Of a stretch of 14,339 bases of DNA, positions 5,202 to 9,310 are shown piece by piece. The stretch covers positions 1 through 14,339 of the forward strand of contig JACDAP010000116.1 of NCBI GenBank assembly GCA_013695395.1, in the 5' to 3' direction. The notes beneath the pieces were generated by a model. The model searched no databases. It was not told the origin of the DNA and saw nothing but the letters and a program-made list of their open reading frames with translations. The translations under genes were made by a program, and so were the position numbers. Source of the DNA: Solirubrobacterales bacterium. Lineage in GTDB: Bacteria; Actinomycetota; Thermoleophilia; Solirubrobacterales; Solirubrobacteraceae. The stretch's first letter is position 1; each line of letters opens with the position of its first letter.

Positions 5202-5233
5202 CAGCGGCTCAGGTGTGGGGCGTGGTGGCACAT
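5201..5233 (-). other. 10-codon relay ORF between pyrK and pyrD
   Basis: The pyrK stop and an ATG share a base (TGATG, 5231-5235). From that ATG runs MCHHAPHLSR and a TGA at 5201-5203, which in turn shares its A with the pyrD ATG (TGATG, 5199-5203). The short ORF is out of frame with pyrD and links the two genes by two stop/start overlaps. No strong Shine-Dalgarno precedes either ATG. It could let ribosomes leaving pyrK step to pyrD, or it may be chance. A GTG at 5231 in the pyrD frame is a competing explanation. Confidence 0.3.
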
Positions 5234-6144
5234 CAGTGGGCCGGTACCGGTGCGAGGTCACCGGCCGCCATGACCGGCCCGTCGACGCAGACGCGTGCGT
5301 AGCCGCCGTCCTTCAGCGGGACGACGCAGCCGAAGCAGGCGCCGTACCCGCACGCCATCCCGGCCTCGAGCGCGAGCTCGGTGGGGACGTCGCGCTCGCT
5401 CACCAATCGTCGGACGGCCTCGAGCATCGGGCCGGGGCCGCAGGCGTAGACGACCGCGTGCTGGTCGCGGTCGAGCTCGGCGGCCAGCAGCTCGGTGACG
5501 TAGCCGTGGTGGCCGGCGCTCCCGTCGTCGGTGGCCAGCTGCGCGGTGGCGAAGGAGGCGGCCACCTGGGCGTGGGCGGCGTCGCGGAAGCCGAGCAGCA
5601 TGGTGGCCTCGGTGCCCTGCTCGGTCAGGCGGCGTGACCAGTCGATGATCGGCGGCAGGCCGATGCCGCCCGCGACGAGGATGGGCCGGGGTCCGCCCCG
5701 GTCGCCGAGTGCCGGATCGTCTCCGCTCACCGAGCGTGCCTCGACGTGCACCGTCTCCGGGGAGTGAAAGCCACGGCCGAACGGGCCGCTGACCCACAGT
5801 GCCTCACCCTTCTTGAGGGTCGCGAGGCGGTGGGTGCCGGGGCCGACGTCCTCGAGCATGAACCAGAGGTGGCCGCCGGAGGAGCCCATCGGCGAGAAGG
5901 CGCGCGGCAGGAACGGTCGCTCGTCCTCCCCGGCCCCCCAGTGCTGCTGGGTCGCGAGCATGTGGAACTGGCCGGGGTCGGCGGGCGGGCCGTCACGGTC
6001 GGCGAGCTCGAGCAGCACGTAGCTGCCCACCGTGCGGGTGGAGACCACAAGCGCGCGGCGCCGGCCGAACGGCGCGAGCGTCCGTCCGTCTTCGCCGCGC
6101 GGGATCGCTGAGTGCGGATCCGCGCCCGACTGGTGGACGCTCAT
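5233..6144 (-). CDS. pyrK: Dihydroorotate dehydrogenase electron transfer subunit (FAD, 2Fe-2S)
   Basis: PyrK carries electrons from PyrD's FMN through a [2Fe-2S] cluster and FAD to NAD+. The product has 303 residues. The FAD-binding barrel has PFLPRAFSP (77-85) and a GPGTHRLATLKKG segment. The NAD-binding half has AGGIGLPP (158-165) and ACGPGPM (234-240). The iron-sulphur cysteines are C265, C270 and C273 in ACGYGACFGC, with C286 in RVCVDGPV. The first 25-30 residues extend beyond the usual family N-terminus, which begins near RRRALVVSTR. The first 15 codons lie inside a duplicated block. ATG at 6144 overlaps the TGA of a 20-codon upstream ORF (ATGA) and has a GGTGAG ribosome-binding site 5 bases upstream. 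Confidence 0.95.
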   Translation of the reverse strand: MSVHQSGADPHSAIPRGEDGRTLAPFGRRRALVVSTRTVGSYVLLELADRDGPPADPGQFHMLATQQHWGAGEDERPFLPRAFSPMGSSGGHLWFMLEDVGPGTHRLATLKKGEALWVSGPFGRGFHSPETVHVEARSVSGDDPALGDRGGPRPILVAGGIGLPPIIDWSRRLTEQGTEATMLLGFRDAAHAQVAASFATAQLATDDGSAGHHGYVTELLAAELDRDQHAVVYACGPGPMLEAVRRLVSERDVPTELALEAGMACGYGACFGCVVPLKDGGYARVCVDGPVMAAGDLAPVPAH

Positions 6145-6199
6145 CCGCGCTCACCGCCGGGGATCGCTGAGTGCGGATCCGCGCCCGACTGGTGGACGC

Positions 6200-6215
<16 letters not shown>
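6101..6215 (-). repeat. Perfect 56-bp tandem repeat, 59-bp period, across the carB/pyrK junction
   Basis: Copies at 6101-6156 and 6160-6215 are identical over all 56 bases and separated by ccg. On the coding strand each copy carries, in order, a GGTGAG ribosome-binding site, the codons GERG with the TGA stop of carB, the overlapping ATG of pyrK (ATGA) and the first 15 pyrK codons ([15 protein letters not shown]). Each copy also contains the 10-bp palindrome GCGGATCCGC (6114-6123 in the left copy). The sequence caccgccg that ends the left copy and spacer recurs just beyond the right copy at 6221-6228, a possible trace of the microhomology at the breakpoint. Complete identity suggests a recent event, or an assembly artefact. 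Confidence 0.97.
6141..6203 (-). CDS. 20-codon mini-ORF created by the carB/pyrK duplication
   Basis: The upstream copy of the pyrK start (ATG at 6203) overlaps the carB TGA as ATGA and has its own GGTGAG ribosome-binding site. It reads 15 residues identical to the PyrK N-terminus. Because the repeat period is 59 bases, the frame then passes into the duplicated carB tail and ends with GGERG and TGA at 6141-6143. That TGA again overlaps the real pyrK ATG as ATGA. The short product is therefore a PyrK head joined to a CarB tail, and it should be translated if the coupling works. It probably has no function of its own. Before the duplication, this ATG was probably the pyrK start. Confidence 0.5.

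Positions 6216-9310
<3,095 letters not shown>

Follow-up and report, generated by a model that had tools for sequence, protein, structure and literature searches.

Our main reading, to which we assign a probability of about 0.8, is that two units of a 45-nt near-palindrome, dispersed through this genome, occupy the overlap of carB and pyrK in the window (the whole 14,339-nt stretch of Solirubrobacterales DNA that was analysed), a unit or doublet having been inserted near an ancestral GTGA overlap and the coupling rebuilt. The present carB stop, the pyrK start and the first 12 residues of PyrK lie within the palindromic units, and we assign all three to the element because the units belong to a dispersed family and because the unit is missing from the junctions of relatives. 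A mobile-looking palindrome would thus have rewritten the stop and the start of two essential-pathway genes, in a layout that should preserve their coupling.

Layout of the carB–pyrK junction

Bases 6101–6156 of the window equal bases 6160–6215 over 56 bp without a mismatch, with CCG filling the three-base gap. TRF reported this array (6101–6215) with a period of 59, about 1.9 copies (1.95 over the array), 100% matches and a score of 230, the highest of its four rows for the window. The preliminary description had noted a perfect 59-bp repeat of two 56-bp copies three bases apart, which base comparison and TRF confirmed, and its frame arithmetic, with a 20-codon ORF that ends at the second pyrK start, proved equally sound.

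All genes at the junction are read from the minus strand. The final residues of carB (6200–9310) and its stop (TGA, 6202–6200) extend into the carB-side unit (6168–6212), which also contains the ATG at 6203. This ATG opens a relay ORF of 20 codons (6141–6203) whose closing TGA (6143–6141) overlaps the ATG of pyrK (5233–6144) at 6144, giving −4 overlaps at both ends of the relay ORF, with the carB stop and with the pyrK start. The pyrK start and the first 12 pyrK codons fall in the pyrK-side unit (6109–6153), and a 14-nt linker (6154–6167) separates both units. The Shine-Dalgarno-like sequence GGTGAG, presumably serving in that role, lies 5 nt ahead of each ATG (6209–6214 for the ATG at 6203, 6150–6155 for that at 6144). 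The unit end at the junction reads GGTGAGCGCGGATGA, with which an insertion would have rebuilt a stop and start at −4 spacing, and the encoded PyrK N-terminus consists of 12 residues of unit sequence followed by AIP from the flank.

Because the linker has 14 nt instead of the usual 15, the first ATG does not share the pyrK frame and opens the 20-codon relay ORF instead; by frame arithmetic, a 15-nt linker would put the first ATG in the pyrK frame and yield a longer PyrK. The layout is a fact of the sequence, and the relay ORF should pass ribosomes from carB on to pyrK. Most likely, the element is tolerated at this junction because coupled expression is kept. Pfam supported the assignment of the operon's products as CarB, PyrK (DHODB_Fe-S_bind, NAD_binding_1), PyrD, CarA, a PyrC-type amidohydrolase, PyrB and a PyrR-type phosphoribosyltransferase.

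A dispersed palindromic family in the same genome

When the genome that contains the window (G000; 3.25 Mb in 637 contigs, 87% complete) was searched by sequence, the array had 30 matches and a single unit had 56; these totals cover both strands and include the window itself. The unit, being a near-palindrome, matches on both strands. This dispersal is not visible from the window alone. First, A-type units are 45-nt near-palindromes of the form TGAGNGCGGAT...CCCGAANGGTGG...ATCCGCNCTCA. By combining covariance model R1 with a position matrix, we counted 36 full units, distributed over 14 doublets, one triplet and five singles (20 sites in all), including one 46-nt unit on contig C105 that the matrix missed and that was counted through R1 and the alignment; the count excludes incomplete units at the ends of contigs C256 and C229. 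Second, a related B-type family (TGAGAATGGAT...GCCCGCCNGGCGGGC...ATCCATTCTCA) comprises 20 units, spread over 12 sites that include eight doublets, a weak unit on C620 and a partial one on C313 being left out of this count. Scanning a genome-contig collection, which may exclude the own genome, with the A-type pattern gave 0 matches.

The spacing of neighbouring units was exactly 15 nt in 19 of the 24 A- and B-type pairs: 12/16 for the A-type, with 14 nt at the window and C295 and 17 nt at C252 and C206, and 7/8 for the B-type, with 16 nt at C91. No common linker motif was found among the 12 A-type pairs with a 15-nt linker (one per spacing), whose inner 11 nt had an identity of 0.314 versus 0.287 when shuffled, 52 of 1000 shuffles being as high. 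GGATGA occurred on either strand in 23 of the 32 aligned A units, and GGTGAG-N-GCGGATGA in 10. Since GGATGA occurred in 0/14 B-type units, a portable stop/start is not general across both types. The preliminary description had taken the block at the junction for duplicated carB and pyrK sequence; it is instead a dispersed element, whose own GGATGA accounts for the doubled stop/start.

Gene context was assigned with a codon-usage predictor made for this analysis and trained on eight window genes. The 32 sites comprised 11 between convergent, 14 between codirectional and 2 between divergent genes, 3 within genes and 2 with one-sided context, versus 15 convergent, 95 codirectional and 22 divergent cases among other neighbouring gene pairs on the contigs examined. 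Convergent placement was therefore enriched (11/27 versus 15/132, p 0.0007, with gap length unmatched). At 7/32 sites the 3′ end of the upstream gene enters the element, four times via exactly the unit's terminal TGA, and a downstream start lies inside the element at the window alone (1/32 sites). Three copies are read in frame within genes. The first, a doublet, lies in a 2-oxoacid dehydrogenase acyltransferase between the lipoyl domain and the E3-binding domain and encodes two copies of VSADERPNGGRQSALS connected by DEDG; the second lies between both domains of an M17 aminopeptidase, and the third within an intein-like insertion in a UvrD-type helicase (L050, C82). In the M17 aminopeptidase gene (L049, C128), a short direct repeat encoding TEGETG repeats adjoins the unit at about 1440–1515.

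The enriched convergent placement, together with the fixed unit length and spacing, would also be expected if the palindromes were chiefly functional RNA or DNA sites under selection, such as bidirectional terminators, mRNA stabilisers or protein-binding sites, with the carB–pyrK doublet acting as a regulatory hairpin. The minus-strand RNA of the array has a strong predicted fold (−68.2 kcal/mol, z −4.2), and, according to PMC12306157, E. coli REPs near a stop codon lower translation. We nevertheless consider this explanation unlikely. Covariation in the units was not above that of shuffles, on which ground a conserved RNA structure was rejected, and the share of paired cells (82.6% versus 30–45% when slid) shows only the palindromic nature of the unit. 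Three copies lie within coding sequence, and no run of four T was seen by eye beside the arrays. Predicted openness at the two starts was 0.30 and 0.32, equal to that in three relatives (G003, 0.32; G001, 0.30; G007, 0.31), so lower accessibility of the pyrK start was rejected; the suggestion in the preliminary description that PyrK output might be lowered or buffered found no support in these values. No Rfam family matched up to E 0.5 across 5800–6500.

Relatives' junctions and the origin of the array

In 22 of the 31 genomes, counting that of the window, PyrK was detected. Of the 21 relatives, we inspected the carB–pyrK junction in 16 (the other five being G004 and, with split matches, G019, G024, G027 and G030), none of which has a unit there. 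Covariance model R1 likewise detected no junction unit across the pyrK loci of all 21 relatives, G004 being covered for about 120 bases upstream of its PyrK match. Beyond the window, the only match to pass E 0.001 in these loci was a unit inside the pyrK of G003, and the rest were weak (≤16.7 bits).

G003 is the closest relative (CarB 87%, PyrK 76%). Its carB ends in LQELHAPEVVA and the stop, and its pyrK starts at an overlapping GTGAGC, i.e. a plain GTGA overlap. The PyrK proteins of G003 and the window have RGEDGR..LAPFGRRR in common, directly after the element-derived N-terminus in the window; the placement of the block within a non-conserved N-terminal extension of PyrK, as noted earlier, thus held up in the comparison with relatives' proteins. 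The exact insertion point is ambiguous because the G003 junction itself has TGAGCGC, like the unit end. The unit within G003 pyrK is clear and in frame (L056, 1959–2009), and the window pyrK matches this G003-type unit weakly at the equivalent place (5703–5753, minus strand; 17.3 bits, with E 0.0056 over 1.2 kb), in a form that looks decayed; this pyrK-internal insertion is lacking from PyrK of G001, G006 and G007. In G008, from another genus, the end of carB has its own perfect hairpin (CGATGAGGCGAGC..GCTCGCCTCATCG, L067) with the carB stop inside, independent of the window's unit.

Elsewhere in the genome, the flanks of 14 of the 32 sites were compared with G003, and at six of them (C295, C442, C128, C77, C455, C597) both flanks fell on a single G003 locus. 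Models R1 and R3 found no unit at five of these six loci; at the sixth, C597, a G003-type unit is present.

The linker of the window equals the left flank of the array's first unit at 12 of 14 bases, the top share among 21 doublets (next best were C77 and C601, 11/15 each). Unit identity was higher within sites (0.864, 15 pairs) than between sites (0.833, 481 pairs), with 8 of 5000 permutations as high. These figures, and the perfection of both copies, agree with a recent small tandem duplication of native carB-end and pyrK-start sequence as the source of the relay ORF. We regard this origin as highly improbable and rejected it, as the sequence is multicopy in the own genome and lacking at the relatives' junctions. 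The preliminary description, which had proposed aligning the junction in close relatives, is contradicted by that alignment in its view that the sequence is native. Duplication of an already inserted unit remains part of our best explanation: given the match between linker and left flank, local duplication of the inserted unit with its flank may explain the identical units, and insertion as a ready doublet is, given this match, only one possible course. The idea that a small duplication built the array therefore survives in part, in that the second unit may stem from local duplication, but the supposed native carB/pyrK origin was wrong. Under the insertion reading, a unit or doublet would have entered at or near an ancestral GTGA overlap resembling that of G003, and the two units would have become identical via local duplication or conversion.

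An assembly artefact at the window doublet, for which the two identical copies and the assembly's 637 contigs and 87% completeness could be cited, is very improbable, since similarly spaced doublets occur on about 20 further contigs, on many of them with diverged units.

Known repeat systems and related families

MIRUs, the description of which is reportedly due to Supply in 1997, are longer than the 45-nt unit and non-palindromic. According to the review PMC12548453, they appear to be mobile, and insertion at a start codon couples their internal ORF at −4 spacing. Compared by layout, not by sequence, the window element resembles this description as a dispersed repeat, inserted at a start codon, with an internal ORF coupled at −4 nt: carB stop, relay ORF and pyrK start are joined by −4 overlaps, at this one of the 32 sites. 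It differs in being a 45-nt palindrome that occurs in doublets and also lies between convergent genes and within genes. By analogy, MIRU would be the nearest system in its way of working, and the window junction may be seen as a palindromic counterpart to the coupling described for it.

The nearest systems in kind are REP, REPIN and RPE. The present family, with its 36 A-type and 20 B-type units, resembles REP/BIME sequences in that its members are short, imperfectly palindromic and numerous, and lie mostly in intergenic positions and near 3′ ends. The 5′-terminal tetranucleotide GT(A/G)G of the REP definition in PMC3686654 does not open either consensus, which begins with CGnTGAG in the A-type and CGGTGAG in the B-type. 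REPINs similarly form doublets at a preferred spacing, and they are mostly inverted (93% of 430, PMC3116915); here, of the 16 A-type neighbour pairs, 13 are direct and 3 inverted, and the linkers are equal in length, not in sequence. Rickettsia RPEs are described in PMC2229807 as palindromic elements of 105–146 bp that are intergenic or fused in frame within conserved protein genes. Going by this description, the in-frame copies in conserved protein genes (three genes here) are alike; the unit differs in its 45 nt, and the window copy in creating a new stop/start junction. Among the titles retrieved for palindromic repeats in Actinobacteria, Solirubrobacter and Thermoleophilia, none concerned this repeat.

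Two observations stand against a mobile element: no Y1_Tnp was found in G000, G003 or G007, and no target-site duplication was seen by eye. The search for a cognate RAYT (Y1_Tnp, PF01797), made in the 87% complete own genome among others, was negative in 7 of the 8 genus genomes. G005 and G014 do have Y1_Tnp, and the four loci examined there lack the searched arm strings; mobilisation by a RAYT is thus unsupported. We regard a non-autonomous REP-like repeat as the most likely identity of the element. Next to the Y1_Tnp locus of G005 (L121, about 1327 and 2115) lies a different palindrome, of the GGGGCCTGACCCC / GGGGTCTGACCCC type, and Y1 genes here accordingly seem to accompany another repeat.

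Congeners have families of equal unit length with other arms. The pattern GARACCCG...CGGGTYTC, searched in eight genus genomes, was found at 21 sites in G007, 3 in G004 and 0 in the other six, with 0 for the reversed control. On the single contig of G007, the arm-to-arm length was 43 nt at 19 of 21 sites, equal to that of the window's units; in the one pair compared, a G007 unit and the window unit shared 17 of 18 core bases and 12 of 27 arm bases. In G003, model R3 matched 14 places with E at most 0.01 (eight of which were used to build it), with arms that differ again and none near another. At the cut-offs applied, every unit listed in G003 or G007 stands alone. Matches to R1 occurred in 8 of 61 relatives' genomes (own included) and to R2 in 8 of 39, several of them single weak matches that may be due to chance.

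Tentatively, and with more doubt than confidence, we propose that the Solirubrobacteraceae possess a Y1-independent class of palindromic repeats in which the 45-nt unit and the 60-nt doublet period are constant (both multiples of three) and the arms are rewritten per lineage. A-type ends, on which a stop, ATGA and a Shine-Dalgarno-like site can occur, could then land on an operon junction and rebuild its coupling, or lie in frame within genes. Lineage-private repeat families with a constant unit length and without the usual transposase are indicated, and their mode of spread and the reason for the constant 15-nt doublet linker become testable questions. Ten 43-nt sites of a further type occur on the single contig of G014, from another genus, and were absent from the other 120 genomes searched; their link to the common class consists of length and layout, plus weak model matches.
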